From Cyclobacteriaceae bacterium (lineage in GTDB: Bacteria; Bacteroidota; Bacteroidia; Cytophagales; Cyclobacteriaceae): a stretch of DNA of 64,000 bases. The stretch is taken from NCBI GenBank assembly GCA_027533395.1, contig JAPZUF010000009.1, forward strand, positions 186,001-250,000, in the 5' to 3' direction. Below the pieces are notes generated by a model. The model made no database searches and was not told the origin of the DNA. It was given only the letters and a program-made list of their open reading frames with translations. Within the stretch, counting starts at the first letter, position 1. Every line of letters starts with the position of its first letter. Below are positions 2,429 to 58,590 of the stretch, piece after piece. The translations under genes were made by a program, and so were the position numbers.

Positions 2429-3550
2429 ATGAATATGAAAAAAATTCTTTTCATCGATAGAGATGGAACATTGATTAAAGAACCTTCCGATGAACAGATC
2501 GATAGTTTTGAAAAGCTTGAATATTTACCTTTCGTTTTTCAAGGTTTAAGTCAAATAGCTAACGCTAATCTATACGAATTGGTCATCGTTACCAACCAAG
2601 ACGGATTAGGCACAGATAGATTTCCAGAAAATACATTTTGGCCGGCACATCAAAAAATGATGCAAGCTTTCGAAAACGAAGGCATTACTTTCTCTGCTGT
2701 TCACATAGATAAATCCTTTCCACACGAAAACTTACCAACGCGTAAGCCAGGCATAGGTATGTTAACAACTTACCTGAATGTACAGTATGACATCACTAAC
2801 TCACTTGTTATTGGTGATAGAGTTACAGATGTTATATTTGCCAAAAACTTAGGATGCAAAGCTATTTTTATCAACGATGGCAGCAAAGCCAATGAGGTTC
2901 AAACGCAAGGTCTAACTGATTTTCTTGCATTAACAACAACATCGTGGAAAGACATTGCTACTTTTATATTAAAACCAGAAAGAAAAGTTTCGCACATAAG
3001 AAAAACCAAAGAAACCGACATCTCTATCACCTTAAATTTAGATGGAACTGGCATAGCAAAAAATGAAACCGGACTTGGCTTTTTTGATCACATGCTCGAT
3101 CAACTAGCTAAACACGGTAACATCGATTTAGCTATTGTTTGCAAAGGAGATTTACATATTGACGAACACCACACCATAGAAGACACTGCGCTTGCATTGG
3201 GTGAAGCATTTGCGTTAGCCTTAACCGATAAGCGAGGGTTAGAACGTTATGGCTTCTGCTTACCTATGGATGACTGCCTGGCACAAGTAGCTATTGATTT
3301 TGGTGGAAGACCTTGGCTAGTGTGGGAGGCTACTTTTACTAGAGAAAAAATTGGAGAGATGCCTACCGAAATGTTTATGCATTTCTTTAAATCATTTTCA
3401 GATGCAGCTAAATGCAACCTCAATATAAAAGCAGAAGGTGGCAACGAACACCATAAAATAGAAGCCATCTTTAAAGCCTTTGCAAAATCTATAAAAATGG
3501 CCATCAAAAGGGAAGGCAATCAACTTCCATCAACCAAAGGTGTTTTATGA
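2429..3550 (+). CDS. hisB: bifunctional histidinol-phosphatase / imidazoleglycerol-phosphate dehydratase HisB
   Basis: A fusion of two histidine enzymes. Residues 1 to about 165 form a HAD-type phosphatase with the nucleophile motif IDRDGTLI (D10, D12) and a later GDRVTD acid motif; it hydrolyses histidinol phosphate. From about residue 190 the imidazoleglycerol-phosphate dehydratase domain carries the paired metal-binding motifs [13 protein letters not shown] and DEHHTIED, and near the C-terminus EGGNEHHK. The length of 373 is slightly above E. coli HisB (355). An alternative ATG lies two codons downstream at 2435. The stop overlaps hisH by four bases. Confidence 0.97.
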
Positions 3551-4137
3551 AAGTCGCTGTTATCAAATATAACGCTGGTAATATACGCTCGGTGGCGTAT
3601 GCATTGGAGCGCTTGCAAGTTGATTTTTCCATAACAGATGAACATGAAGAAATTCTAAAAGCGGATAAAGTAATTTTTCCAGGAGTTGGCGAGGCAAGTT
3701 CAACGATGCGCTATTTAAGAGATCATAAGTTGGATGAATTGATTAAATCACTGCAACAACCTGTTTTAGGTGTTTGTTTAGGTATGCAACTGATGTGCAA
3801 ATATTCTGAAGAAAACGATACTGCTTGTTTAGGCATTTTTGATGAAAAGGTAAAAAAATTTATTCCTCAACAAAAAGAAAAAGTACCTCATATGGGTTGG
3901 AACACCATCACCACAACCAATAGTTGGCTGGGTGAAAGTGTAAACAATCAATATGTCTATTTTGTACACGGGTATTATGTACCGGTTAATGAAAACACAG
4001 CAGCTATAGCACAATATATTCAGCCTTTTAGCGCAGCGTTAAAGAAAGATAATTTTTATGCAGTTCAATTTCATCCGGAGAAATCAGCAGAAACCGGACA
4101 GAAAATTTTAGAAAGTTTTTTAAATTCTAGATCATGA
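3547..4137 (+). CDS. hisH: imidazole glycerol phosphate synthase, glutaminase subunit HisH
   Basis: Class I glutamine amidotransferase that supplies ammonia to HisF. The catalytic triad is visible: C77 in GVCLGMQLM, and H176 and E178 in QFHPEKS. The length of 196 is normal. The start overlaps hisB and the stop overlaps hisA, each by four bases (ATGA), so the subunit should be made in step with its neighbours. The functional partner HisF is encoded two genes downstream. Confidence 0.96.
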
Positions 4138-4850
4138 TTATTTTTCCGGCTATCGATATCATAGAAGGCAAATGCGTGCGCTTAACGCAAGGCGATTATC
4201 AAGCTAAAACCATCTACCACGATAAACCTGCCGACATGGCAAAAATGTTTGAAGATGAGGGATTCTCTCACTTACATGTTGTAGATTTAGATGGTGCGCA
4301 AGCTGGCGCAATTAGAAATTGGCGTTCAATAGAAGAGATAACAAAATCAACCAACCTAAATGTCGATGTTGGCGGTGGCATTAAAACAGCATCAACTATT
4401 GAATCCTTATTAGAACTAGGTGTAAAACAAGTTAACTTAGGAAGCATCGCACACAAAGCCCCTGAACTGGTACAAGAATGGATGGAACAATTTGGAAACA
4501 ATACCATCATCATCAGTGCTGATGTACGCGATGAAAATATTGCTGTTCAAGGTTGGCAAAATCAATCCACTTCTAATGTATTCGATTTTATAAAAAATAA
4601 TCAGTGGGAAAAAGCGACCATCACTTGCACCGATATTCAAACAGATGGTATGCTTAGCGGACCCAACGTTAGTTTATATGCCAAACTAAGACAACAATTT
4701 CCACAAGCCAGTATCATAGCCAGTGGTGGTGTTGGGAATATAGAACATATCAAAGCTTTAAAAGAATTAAAAGTATTTGGTGTTATAGTAGGCAAGGCTA
4801 TTTACGAAAACAAAATCAGTTTAAAAGAATTACAAAGTTATGCTGGCTAA
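4134..4850 (+). CDS. hisA: ProFAR isomerase HisA
   Basis: Phosphoribosylformimino-5-aminoimidazole carboxamide ribotide isomerase, a TIM barrel of 238 residues. The first catalytic aspartate is D8 in [14 protein letters not shown]. The second-half acid lies in [14 protein letters not shown], and the phosphate-binding glycines are in DVGGGIK and ASGGVGN. It resembles hisF because both arose from the same half-barrel duplication; the ID-I-I-x-G-K N-terminus favours HisA over HisF. It overlaps hisF by eleven bases. Confidence 0.96.
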
Positions 4851-5592
4851 ACGCATTATTCCTTGCTTGGATATTAAAGATGGTAGAACTGTAAAAGGCA
4901 TCAACTTTGAAAACATGCGCGATGCCGGAGATCCGGTTGCCTTAGGAGAAAAGTACGCCAAAGAAGGTGCTGATGAATTGGTGTTTCTAGATATCTCTGC
5001 CACACAAGAGCAACGCAAAACTTTTGCCTCTCTTGTAAACGAAATCGCGCGCCACCTCAACATACCTTTTACGGTGGGTGGCGGCATCAGCTCCATTGCT
5101 GACGCAGAAAAATTATTAGAAGCAGGTGCAGATAAAGTAAGCATCAATTCATCTGCAGTGTACAATCCGGATTTAATCAATGAAATGGCAAAAGCTTTTG
5201 GTTCTCAATTTGTTGTCGTTGCCATCGATGCCAAAAAAGAAATTAATAACTGGGTAGTACATACACATGGTGGCAAAAAAGCAACAGATAAAAGATTGTA
5301 TTCATGGGCGTTAGAAACACAAGAGCGTGGTGCGGGAGAAATTTTATTTACCAGCATGAACCACGATGGTGCCAAACAAGGTTTCGCCAATGAGGCTTTA
5401 GAAAAACTACACCATGCTTTACAAATACCCGTTATTGCCAGCGGTGGCGCAGGCGATTACGGTCATTTCATGGATGTTTTTACATTAGGAAAAGCTGATG
5501 CCGCCTTAGCAGCTAGTGTTTTTCACTTTGGCGAAATCAGTGTGCCACAACTTAAATCATACTTACGCTCAAAACTTATATCGGTACGATAA
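4840..5592 (+). CDS. hisF: imidazole glycerol phosphate synthase, cyclase subunit HisF
   Basis: Cyclase subunit that uses ammonia from HisH to form imidazole glycerol phosphate and AICAR. The 250-residue TIM barrel has both catalytic aspartates: D11 in [15 protein letters not shown] and D130 in VVAIDAKKE. Phosphate-binding GGGI and [10 protein letters not shown] segments are present. The start lies eleven bases inside hisA, and the stop shares one base with the hisIE start (TAATG). AICAR produced here links the pathway to purine synthesis. Confidence 0.97.
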
Positions 5593-6206
5593 TGAATATT
5601 GAAACATTACGATTTGATAAATTGCAAGGTCTTATTCCTTGCATTGTTCAAGATAGCGAAACAAAAGCTGTGCTGATGCTAGGCTTCATGAACCAAGAAG
5701 CATTGGAAAAAACAATAGCTGAGAAAAGAGTTACTTTCTTCTCCCGATCTAAAAACAGGTTATGGACAAAAGGAGAAACTTCCGGTAATTTTTTAGAAGT
5801 AGAAAATATCATCGCAGATTGTGATCAGGATACGCTATTGATAGAAGCCAAACCCAAAGGTGTTGTTTGCCATACCGGAACTTCAACTTGCTTTGGCAAT
5901 TCTAGTCCGGATAAATTTTCATTAGCCAGCTTAGATGCTTTAATTCAGGATAGAAAGGTACATCCTATCGAGAAGTCATATACCAACACGTTATTAGCTG
6001 GTTCGATCAATAAAGTAGCGCAAAAAGTAGGTGAAGAAGCGGTAGAATTGGTAATCGAAAGCAAAGACAACGACAAAGATTTGTTTTTAGGGGAAGCAGC
6101 AGACTTAATGTATCATTTCTTAATATTGCTAGCCGCCAAAAATTATAGACTTAGTGATGTAGAAGAAGTGTTGGAGAAAAGATTTCGCAAAAAAACAACA
6201 GAATAA
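5592..6206 (+). CDS. hisI: bifunctional phosphoribosyl-AMP cyclohydrolase / phosphoribosyl-ATP pyrophosphatase HisIE
   Basis: A 204-residue fusion for steps two and three of the pathway. The N-terminal cyclohydrolase has FFSRSKNRLWTKGETSGN and the metal-binding aspartates and cysteines in DCDQDTLL and VCHTGTSTCF. The C-terminal pyrophosphohydrolase, from about residue 115, has the helical MazG-like motif VGEEAVELVIE followed by EAADLMYHFLILL. It is the last gene of the operon; no clear hairpin terminator is visible in the 93 bases before the next gene. Confidence 0.96.
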   Translation: MNIETLRFDKLQGLIPCIVQDSETKAVLMLGFMNQEALEKTIAEKRVTFFSRSKNRLWTKGETSGNFLEVENIIADCDQDTLLIEAKPKGVVCHTGTSTCFGNSSPDKFSLASLDALIQDRKVHPIEKSYTNTLLAGSINKVAQKVGEEAVELVIESKDNDKDLFLGEAADLMYHFLILLAAKNYRLSDVEEVLEKRFRKKTTE

Positions 6207-55665: not shown

Positions 55666-57696
55666 TTAATTTCTGTCTCTTGGCTTTTCGATGCGTGCAG
55701 GATCTGGAACCATTGGCAAATCGAATAGAAATTCGGTAAATGAAAAATCTTCTGCGCGGTTGAAATGAATTTCTCCTTGTATTTTTCGAGTTGATATGGC
55801 CGCTATAAATAAACCCATGCCTCCTGTTAGAGAACGTTCGGAACCTCTTGTGAACATATGGAACAGCGAATCTTCATCGAGGTTGATGGGTATTCCAACA
55901 CCATTATCTCGGATTTTAATTTGAATTTCTTTTCCTTTGTTTATTACTTCAATTTTAACATACGATTCAATTCTTGGCGATTCGTTGTAATATTTAAAAG
56001 CATTATCGATAACACTTGACATTGCATAATAGAACAAGTTAGGTTCAGTTTTAAATTCAGGAGTTGGGTCAATGTGAAATTGTACATCAATTGGTTTGAT
56101 GCGTTGTATTTGTGTTTGATTTTGTAAAATACCTTTTATAACCCACTCTATATCCACAGAAACAGGGCGAACATGTGTATTATAAATTTCGTTGACGCGA
56201 GAAAACTTATCTAAAACTTGATTAAGCTGTGAGGAGGTAATATCCAACTTATGCAAAAACGACAATGCAATTGGATCTTTTACATCCATAATGGCGATGT
56301 TGCAAACTCCTTTTAAAGTTGCAAGTGGCCCGCGGATATCATGCGAAGTTTTGTAAACAAGATTATCCAACTCATCATTCACTTGTTTTAAGTTATGATT
56401 GGCTTTGATTAATTCCTTAGTCTTCTTTTCTACTTCTAAGGCTAGTTTAGCGTTAAGTTTCTTAATCATGCGGCTGTTGCGCATAATTAAATAGATAAAT
56501 GCAAATGCCATTACCACGATAAAGGCAATGGCGTAGTTTAAACTTCTTTGAGCTTTGATAATTTTTTCATTATCGCGTATGGTTGATAGGTTTTCGCGTT
56601 CAGCATATTTAGCTTGAACATCCGCTAGATTTTTAATGAGTTCTTCGCTCATTAAACTATCGCGAAGTTGAATATACTTATTACTGTATTGGGTTGAGAT
56701 TTCAAAATCGTTTTTAAGCGAATAAATTTTAGCGTTCTTTTTATAAATATCTGCTAGGTTCTGATAATAGTATGACGACAGAGCCAGTTTTTCAGCTTCA
56801 AGCAAAACTCCAAGGGCTTTATCTAATTTATTTTGCTTTTCGTAAACTTCAGCTAAGCCTTTTAATGATTCGATTTGCAGTAATTTTTCATCTTGTTCCT
56901 TTGATAATCGAATAGCTTCGATAAAATATCTTTCAGATTCTTCTAATTTATTGTTTGCAAGATTAATTATTCCAAAACAACATGCAGCAGACATCTTAAG
57001 ATCTGTAGCGCAATCATCTTTACAGATATTTAGTCCTTTAATCAAATAAGCTTCTGCTGTTGGTAAATCGCCTAATTGGTTATAGCAAAGAGCCATATTG
57101 ATATAAAGACGATCTAAATCAAATTTATTATTAACTGAGTTCTTCAGTTCTAAAGATCTTCTATAATATTCTAAAGCTCCTTCATAATTTTTAAGTTTAA
57201 AATAAACAAGTCCGATATTATTACAAGTAATACTCATATCTTCCTTATTCCCTAACTTTTCATTAATCGTTAAGGCTTCGAAATTGGCTTGTAAAGCCAA
57301 ATCATACTGTGCTGAATAAGTATAAGAAAGAGCTTTAAGGTTGATGATTTTACTTAACTCTTCGTAATAATTATTTCGTTTTGCAATTCCATACGCATCA
57401 TTAAGCACTACTAAGTTTTCTTTTTCTTTAGACATTCTTCGAAGTATAAATGCCTTAGCATATAATATCCTTGTTATAGCCAGACTATCTTTTATCCGAT
57501 AAGAAATATCTAGCGCTTTTTCTGAAGCATCTAAAGCAAGTTGAGGGTTTCTGCTGAATTCACTTCTCATAAAAGTAAGAATGGCCTCAACCTTTTCTTT
57601 ATCATTCGAATCTCCAACTGCTGATAAAAGTGAATCGATTTGAGCTTTGGCAGGAAGTGAAAATATTATAAAACAAAAAATAATGAATGCTCTCAT
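55666..57696 (-). CDS. TPR-containing sensor histidine kinase (orphan)
   Basis: 676 residues. Signal peptide at 1-18 (PAKAQ). A periplasmic domain of about eight TPR repeats (about 50-370) includes NNIGLVYFKLKNYEGALEYY. One TM is at about 392-410, followed by a coiled coil. The phosphoacceptor motif is YKTSHDIRGPLATL (H452), and the ATP-binding motifs are VIDNAFKYY, DNGVGIP and GGMGLFIAA. No receiver domain and no regulator are adjacent. It is divergent from two tiny exported-peptide genes across 132 bases. The kinase core resembles that of 6300-8153. Confidence 0.9.
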   Translation of the reverse strand: MRAFIIFCFIIFSLPAKAQIDSLLSAVGDSNDKEKVEAILTFMRSEFSRNPQLALDASEKALDISYRIKDSLAITRILYAKAFILRRMSKEKENLVVLNDAYGIAKRNNYYEELSKIINLKALSYTYSAQYDLALQANFEALTINEKLGNKEDMSITCNNIGLVYFKLKNYEGALEYYRRSLELKNSVNNKFDLDRLYINMALCYNQLGDLPTAEAYLIKGLNICKDDCATDLKMSAACCFGIINLANNKLEESERYFIEAIRLSKEQDEKLLQIESLKGLAEVYEKQNKLDKALGVLLEAEKLALSSYYYQNLADIYKKNAKIYSLKNDFEISTQYSNKYIQLRDSLMSEELIKNLADVQAKYAERENLSTIRDNEKIIKAQRSLNYAIAFIVVMAFAFIYLIMRNSRMIKKLNAKLALEVEKKTKELIKANHNLKQVNDELDNLVYKTSHDIRGPLATLKGVCNIAIMDVKDPIALSFLHKLDITSSQLNQVLDKFSRVNEIYNTHVRPVSVDIEWVIKGILQNQTQIQRIKPIDVQFHIDPTPEFKTEPNLFYYAMSSVIDNAFKYYNESPRIESYVKIEVINKGKEIQIKIRDNGVGIPINLDEDSLFHMFTRGSERSLTGGMGLFIAAISTRKIQGEIHFNRAEDFSFTEFLFDLPMVPDPARIEKPRDRN

Positions 57697-57828
57697 TTTG
57701 GCACAGAAGTAGGGTAGTTAAAAAAATAAGTAAAAATGATTAAGAGAGCCAACCGACATTTGTAACATCAATTTTAATAAAAAGTAACCTAACAAAAAAA
57801 CTATTATAAAATTATAAACCCCACACTT

Positions 57829-57960
57829 ATGAAAAAGTATTTACTAATGATCGCTTTCTTAATGACAGTTGCTTTAACACTATCATCTTGCACAGAAGAG
57901 GAAGTAAAGCCAGCAGATAAAAATTCTGACTATGCAACTGGAAGCGCTAAAATGTTTTAA
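57829..57960 (+). CDS. small lipoprotein peptide, 43 residues
   Basis: ATG at 57829, TAA at 57958-57960. The sequence begins MKKYLLMIAFLMTVALTLSS and continues with the lipobox cysteine C21, so the mature lipopeptide would be only 23 residues: acidic (TEEEV) and ending ATGSAKMF. No family recognised. Evidence that it is real: a textbook lipoprotein signal, a similar second peptide eleven codons' spacing downstream, and a terminator after the pair. It may be processed or sensed at the cell surface; this is inference. Confidence 0.65.
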   Translation: MKKYLLMIAFLMTVALTLSSCTEEEVKPADKNSDYATGSAKMF

Positions 57961-57970
57961 GTATAAGGCC

Positions 57971-58120
57971 ATGAAAAAAAACATATATTGGATTGCATTA
58001 ATAGCTTTGGTGGTATTATCTGCGTCCTTTACATTTGGTAGAAAAAAATCTGTAACAGTTGTCTCTCAATCTGCCGAAACAGAAGTAGCAGGTGGTTTAG
58101 GTTCAGCTCAATCATTCTAG
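57971..58120 (+). CDS. small exported peptide, 49 residues
   Basis: ATG at 57971, ten bases after the first peptide gene. A longer frame from 57932 overlaps that gene and lacks a sensible start. N-terminal MKKNIYWIALIALVVLSASF is a signal or membrane anchor; a basic GRKKS turn follows, then an acidic part and the ending GGLGSAQSF. The C-terminal G-S-A-x-x-F matches the end of the upstream peptide. No family recognised. A terminator follows 20 bases later. Confidence 0.6.
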   Translation: MKKNIYWIALIALVVLSASFTFGRKKSVTVVSQSAETEVAGGLGSAQSF

Positions 58121-58590
58121 TTTTTCTTCCATTTAACTTGAGGCAAAGTATTTCGTAGAAAATACTTTGCCTTTTCGTTTTTATAGGTTTCTAACTTGGC
58201 CAAGGTATTTTACTTGAGACCAATCTCAAGGATTGTTCTCACTGAAACATAGTATGTTTACTTTTGATTTAATTAATTATCTAAATCGAAATAGATTAAA
58301 ACTAAGTTTTTAACTCGTTCAAAATGAATTTAGACTTTCATTAAATAGATTACTCAATATGGTTTAATGATGAAAATGAATGTAATGGCCGTTGTTACCA
58401 TTTTTAAAAAACAACCACCTGAAGCCATCTTAATTACAAGTAAATGATTATCCCCAACAGTCAACGTTCTAAAATAATCCGTACGTTTCTTTAGCTCATT
58501 AAAGTTACTACGCTTAAAATAGAGGTAACGTATTGAGATTTACTTCGTTATTTTGGTAGAATATGTGATAAAATCATGCAAAATATTACC
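58121..58590. other. 470-base intergenic region
   Basis: Holds the terminator above, then a small hairpin CTTGAGA-CCAA-TCTCAAG at 58213-58230 without a T-run, and AT-rich sequence up to the bioB stop. The longest open frame noticed is 26 codons (58367-58447), with no supporting signal. I see no other feature. Confidence 0.55.
58141..58172 (+). terminator. intrinsic terminator after the small-peptide pair
   Basis: Perfect thirteen-base arms AGGCAAAGTATTT (58141-58153) and AAATACTTTGCCT (58160-58172), loop CGTAGA, followed by a T-rich tract. It marks the two peptide genes as a separate transcription unit. Confidence 0.85.

Follow-up and report, generated by a model that had tools for sequence, protein, structure and literature searches.

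What do two very short exported peptides do beside a sensor kinase, when they differ elsewhere and end in nearly the same six residues? The stretch of DNA analysed here (the window, 64,000 nucleotides) raises that question. The first-pass annotation had described two tandem ORFs of 43 and 49 amino acids, ten bases apart and ending in GSAKMF and GSAQSF, closed by a terminator and divergent from a TPR histidine kinase, and had proposed that they encode signal peptides or small modulators of that kinase. Its coordinates for the two ORFs proved exact, and both the kinase and the terminator are present where it had put them; the observation came out stronger than the annotation had put it. The elements of the locus are the following:

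55666..57696, minus strand: TPR sensor histidine kinase of 676 amino acids, from Pfam matches, with H, N and G boxes present.
56632..57639, minus strand: predicted periplasmic TPR superhelix, kinase residues ~20-355, from an AlphaFold2 model.
57697..57828, no strand assigned: divergent intergenic region with the putative P1 promoter, from a candidate -7 element.
57829..57960, plus strand: P1, small lipoprotein of 43 amino acids (MKKYLLMIAFLMTVALTLSSC/TEEEVKPADKNSDYATGSAKMF), an ORF with a lipobox.
57940..57957, plus strand: P1 C-terminal tail GSAKMF, from comparison with P2 tails.
57971..58120, plus strand: P2, exported or membrane-anchored peptide of 49 amino acids (MKKNIYWIALIALVVLSASFTFGRKK...EVAGGLGSAQSF), an ORF with no lipobox.
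58100..58117, plus strand: P2 C-terminal tail GSAQSF, behind a conserved GG-[FL] motif, from motif conservation.
58141..58172, plus strand: intrinsic terminator closing the P1-P2 unit, an inverted repeat of 13-14 bp with a T-run downstream.

Both N-termini had been read as a signal or anchor helix. This holds for P2, whose hydrophobic N-terminus resembles that of P1 without a lipobox and is followed by a linker and a GG-L tail. The P1 helix is instead a lipoprotein signal peptide: MKK and a hydrophobic stretch lead into the lipobox LSSC, with cleavage predicted before Cys21, and then come TEEEVKP and a short tail. A lipobox followed by an acidic stretch is found in 132 of the 136 P1 copies of the family, most of which have T, S or A at +2 and E/K-E-E at +3 to +5 (TEEE in the window), and CTEEEVxP is invariant in the five genomes of the genus. 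The LES rule describes a polar or charged residue and then at least two acidic residues at +2 to +6 after the cysteine (PMC5080379), and P1 has this arrangement. A surface-export signal is probably present in P1, its surface location being deduced from LES rules derived from other genera. In P2, a [GS]G-hydrophobic motif lies near the C-terminus in 87 of 94 copies (consensus GGFVSEDKF). We rejected the idea that P2 carries a GG-leader (C39), since the export helix precedes the GG, which stands 7-9 residues from the end.

Neither P1 nor P2 has a family above the cut-offs of Pfam, NCBIfam or PHROGs. Like the PG1828 family lipoprotein (NCBIfam NF050142), P1 is a short lipoprotein, but the score of the window's P1, 18.2 bits, falls short of the 50-bit cut-off, and the match is confined to the signal peptide and the stretch after it up to position 34; weak similarity to this profile occurs in 9 of 23 P1 members (best E 1.6e-5). 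Matches of P1 to a frog skin peptide and to PHROGs were discarded as signal-peptide noise, and an Enterococcus-type pheromone within the P1 signal peptide was excluded because signal peptides diverge freely among array copies. Upstream of P1, GACATTTG at 57755-57762 is a candidate -7 element that on visual inspection fits the Bacteroidota TAnnTTTG element, and a TTTG element lies 5' of P1 in many relatives. The folding energy of the terminator is -17.6 kcal/mol (z -3.9 relative to shuffled sequences).

Conservation shows that the pair is not a chance product. P1, P2 and the kinase keep an identical order in 5 of 5 genomes of the genus (the G004 kinase is only ~30% identical), and a P2 profile search found the module in 88 genomes from ten genera of one Cytophagales family. 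Each genome contributed one parsed locus, with one to five P1 copies, then one or two P2 copies, and the kinase was divergent in all 82 loci with enough contig; in the remaining six loci, the contig ends no more than ~0.7 kb from the peptides. Between close species pairs, dN/dS of P1 and P2 is mostly 0.02-0.2 and at most 0.43, far below 1 (for P2 against its G003 homologue, dN is 0.12 and dS 1.11). By these ratios, both genes are under purifying selection.

The distribution of the peptides follows one group of kinases. Inside the family, kinases scoring above ~237 bits carry peptides (G023, G008 and G007, described below, are among them), and paralogues below that score, including one in the window's own genome, do not; among related TPR kinases from other families of the order, 0 of 27 had such peptides. 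P2 profile searches at order and class level gave nothing convincing outside the family, many weak matches being signal-peptide similarity within long ORFs. The genes metG and sppA adjoin the module in about three quarters of loci, the window included; both are housekeeping genes, and no further gene was seen constantly linked to it.

Several loci depart from the usual layout. In G023 and G008, P1 stands without P2 beside the kinase. In L225 (G007), ~290-640 bases upstream of the kinase, there are a P1-like peptide with CTEEEVKP...SEGLHLRDR and a P2-like one ending EGITERERY. Six loci of genus g36 (L155, L156, L145, L158, L178 and L160) carry two tandem P2 copies with very similar tails of the GFxLEDxNQF type, mirroring the usual P1 arrays. 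In L012 (G002), the kinase ORF at 3921-6000 is split over two frames, through either a frameshift error or a broken gene. Elsewhere in the family, other genera also have small lipoproteins of 50-62 amino acids adjoining TPR-rich proteins (L056 2017-2187, L057 1772-1930, L058 1929-2111, L060 1994-2182, L061 1969-2142 and L049 1501-1674), which suggests a wider lipopeptide-TPR theme. In L056 and L057 the adjoining TPR protein is itself lipoprotein-like, and in L060 the TPR protein next to the 62-residue lipoprotein (2546-3598) scores 26.4 bits for Pfam RNPP_C, whose cut-off is 26.5. L052 (G016) has an array of three near-identical 52-residue lipoproteins at 1991-2559, with near-identical C-terminal regions and no TPR kinase adjacent.

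Do the P1 and P2 tails of a species belong together? They were compared with an end-anchored score over the last eight residues in 82 distinct P1-P2 pairs. The mean score was 5.17, against 1.68 (sd 0.48) when P2 was shuffled among species and 3.51 (sd 0.39) when it was shuffled within the genus, and in both designs 0 of 5000 shuffles reached the observed value. The eight residues preceding the tail, and the signal region, showed no excess similarity between P1 and P2. In the window, no foreign P2 tail outscores the species' own against the P1 tail GSAKMF, and the likeness of the two ends is thus beyond chance. Matched tails elsewhere include GHVSERI and GFGSERI (G533), VSDRL and VSETRL (G657), and VKDDPGF and TKDDTTF (G551). 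The match is an excess at population level, 2.43 against 1.93 identical residues per eight, and it is weak in some species (P1 ...PIKE with P2 ...EDTDQWK).

The annotation had explained the shared ends by duplication and selection. Selection on the tails survives, in purifying form; duplication does not. Where P1 and P2 tail residues are identical, their codons agree at a rate of 39%, against 41% in mismatched pairs, so the likeness lies at the amino-acid level and is not DNA copying; the serine shared by the window pair is AGC in one gene and TCA in the other. Because P1 and P2 differ elsewhere and use unrelated codons for identical residues, the shared tail looks like amino-acid-level convergence and not the trace of a duplication.

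The tandem P1 copies tell how tightly the tails are held within a species. Their tails are mostly identical and change by synonymous substitution only, and their signal peptides diverge: in the G655 array the last ten codons show 32 synonymous and 0 nonsynonymous differences, against 31 synonymous and 60 nonsynonymous in the signal peptide. Many other arrays behave in the same way, the exceptions being mostly arrays with length-shifted tails. Gene conversion or recent duplication as the source of the shared tails was ruled out by these synonymous differences together with the background level of P1-P2 codon identity. Between species, 81 distinct P1 tails occur in 88 loci. This species-specific diversification, combined with the frozen arrays, favours a role of the tails in recognition. 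In arrays G087 and G138, differing residues are appended after a common core, so that recognition may not depend on the free C-terminus.

If the tails are recognised, is the kinase the partner? Its domain order is a signal peptide (AKA, with Q after the cut), the TPR sensor, a transmembrane helix at ~388-408, HisKA and HATPase_c. With a signal peptide and one transmembrane helix, its TPRs should be periplasmic. In partial Mantel tests on 59 loci, with neighbour-gene (metG, bioB, sppA) and catalytic-domain distance removed, tail distance correlated with TPR distance (r 0.34 for P1 and 0.49 for P2; 0 of 1000 permutations), and on the same loci tail distance did not correlate with catalytic-domain distance once TPR distance was removed. 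Removing TPR distance also leaves no clear correlation between P1 and P2 tails (the observed value is equalled or exceeded in 155 of 1000 permutations), as a common receptor for both would predict. Signal-peptide distances likewise track the TPR domain and the kinase, so co-inheritance of the module accounts for part of the tail-TPR correlation. At the level of single residues, covariation of the tails with TPR columns was not concentrated on the groove-lining helices (p 0.71). Together with the conserved linkage, the co-divergence supports the original proposal that the peptides are signals to, or small modulators of, the divergent kinase.

The annotation had also suggested that the periplasmic TPR domain could bind peptides, a suggestion that the predicted fold strengthens. 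The AlphaFold2 model of kinase residues 1-400, made from a 65-row alignment, has a pLDDT of 92 and a pTM of 0.85. Its best structural match is APPBP2 with a C-degron peptide (Z 31.4). Rap with pheromone (Z 28), RapF with peptide (Z 27), NprR (Z 26.4) and AimR (Z 21.4) also match, the Rap, NprR and AimR alignments covering ~290-330 residues, as do TSK/BRU1, MalT and LGN-peptide complexes. The sensor is thus predicted to be a superhelix of RRNPP/C-degron-receptor type, a resemblance at the level of the fold, and TPR superhelices in general accommodate many ligands. Conserved asparagines (N119, N159, N160 and N200) sit on the first helices of the TPR repeats, which line the groove; in RRNPP receptors comparable asparagines hold peptide backbones. 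C225 and C229 are 99% conserved and compatible with a periplasmic disulfide.

On balance, we think it probable that the locus is a self-contained peptide-sensing module in which the periplasmic TPR domain has the tails as its ligands and they determine how active the kinase is, a reading built on sequence comparison and a predicted structure. P1 would be made as a prolipoprotein, cut before Cys21 and anchored by lipid; P2 would be exported by Sec and then released into the periplasm or retained by its N-terminal helix. Both would carry a species-specific end motif of the GG-hydrophobic-x-S-E/D-x-x-F type, and the divergent kinase would place its TPR superhelix in the periplasm, where the tails would occupy the groove and so set its activity. 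P1, at the surface or outer membrane, and P2, in the periplasm or at the inner membrane, would present one ligand in two places, and the kinase would therefore read the supply, release or location of P1 and P2. The acidic start of P1 is similar to the signal for lipoprotein export in Bacteroidota, so the P1 tail may be exposed outside the cell or shed; that of P2 would remain periplasmic. We infer the export routes, the binding of tails to the TPR domain and the sign of regulation, and consider release of the tail from P1 and its exchange between cells speculative. Autocrine sensing is the minimum claim.

Could the kinase instead monitor lipoprotein sorting or the state of the outer membrane, with no signal passing between cells? 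P1 would then be reporter cargo, comparable to the lipoproteins of NlpE-Cpx or RcsF-Rcs, and P2, at the inner membrane or in the periplasm, a reference ligand, the tails still binding the TPR domain. The conserved acidic residues after the P1 cysteine and the non-lipidated state of P2 suit such envelope surveillance, and a tail common to P1 and P2 is expected if the sensor compares location and not identity. However, a generic stress reporter needs no separate tail for nearly every species, and arrays of up to five P1 copies with frozen tails are left unexplained; we regard this explanation as unlikely. We consider it improbable that P1 and P2 are small membrane modulators in the style of MgrB or SafA, whose helices or bodies touch the transmembrane segment or linker of the kinase while the tails just aid docking or stability. 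They are indeed short single-helix proteins adjoining a kinase, and their signal regions co-diverge with it, but within arrays the P1 signal peptides diverge freely and the tails are fixed, lipoprotein processing should remove the P1 helix, and tail distance tracks the TPR and not the catalytic domain. It is very improbable that the tails are recognised by another partner, for instance a surface-assembly factor or a C-terminal protease, which is itself regulated or sensed by the kinase, the linkage being purely regulatory: many tails do end in a single aromatic residue, which is typical of PDZ or protease recognition, but no other gene was seen constantly linked to the module, the frequent neighbours metG and sppA being housekeeping genes, and tail divergence tracks the TPR domain specifically.

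As a peptide-sensing module, the locus recalls the RRNPP systems (Rap-Phr, NprR-NprX, PlcR-PapR and AimR-AimP). Common to both are a TPR superhelix as receptor (predicted here), short exported propeptides encoded beside it (here with secretion past the inner membrane presumed), a C-terminal part that is the variable signal, and co-divergence of receptor and peptide. Unlike the cytoplasmic RRNPP receptors, the kinase combines a signal peptide with a transmembrane helix and a histidine kinase domain, has no HTH or phosphatase output, and should hold its TPRs in the periplasm; of the two carriers, one is a lipoprotein and the other a further exported peptide, and the host is a Gram-negative Bacteroidota. 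RRNPP peptides are re-imported by an oligopeptide permease, whereas a periplasmic sensor would need no inner-membrane import. The module works like a peptide-TPR receptor system and fails RRNPP membership on receptor location and output. An RRNPP survey (PMC10075063) was confined to Firmicutes genomes.

The Gram-positive AgrCD and ComCDE systems likewise encode a short exported peptide next to a sensor kinase, but their sensor is a polytopic membrane domain (HPK10) in place of a TPR domain, and the module has two carrier types with one tail. Processing genes of the AgrB or GG-leader ABC type were not seen beside the module in the window, and the GG of P2, unlike that of Agr/Com leaders, lies near the C-terminus behind a signal helix and not in a cytoplasmic leader. 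Within the Bacteroidota, PorA-PorXY of Porphyromonas gingivalis is a histidine kinase pathway that depends on an exported surface protein; PorA is a larger T9SS CTD protein, in contrast to short peptides without a CTD and a TPR sensor (PMC7712824). FimS-type TPR histidine kinases (NCBIfam NF053520) are similar to the kinase, which matches most of that profile at 112.6 bits, far under the 600-bit equivalog cut-off. A kinase search of genome contigs gave a Flammeovirgaceae MAG as the sole close named record, and in the literature covered, which included few subscription journals and preprints, we found no described Bacteroidota lipopeptide-TPR kinase system. Recurrence of the trio in nearly 90 related bacteria suggests a peptide-signalling circuit of Bacteroidota that has not been described before.

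TPR histidine kinases are numerous in the Bacteroidota, and we know of no identified ligands for them. For one subfamily, the locus supplies a candidate ligand that is genetically encoded and has a specific epitope of 6-8 residues, and it illustrates how comparative evidence can support both the reality and the function of genes of 40-50 codons that family libraries lack. A more tentative possibility, about which we remain doubtful, is species-specific peptide communication across the whole family, with a surface lipopeptide and a periplasmic peptide sharing a pherotype-like tail that a periplasmic RRNPP-like TPR kinase reads. If the ligand reading holds, the locus would carry RRNPP-like peptide reception over to a periplasmic sensor kinase and to a Gram-negative phylum, potentially as a new class if binding is shown.
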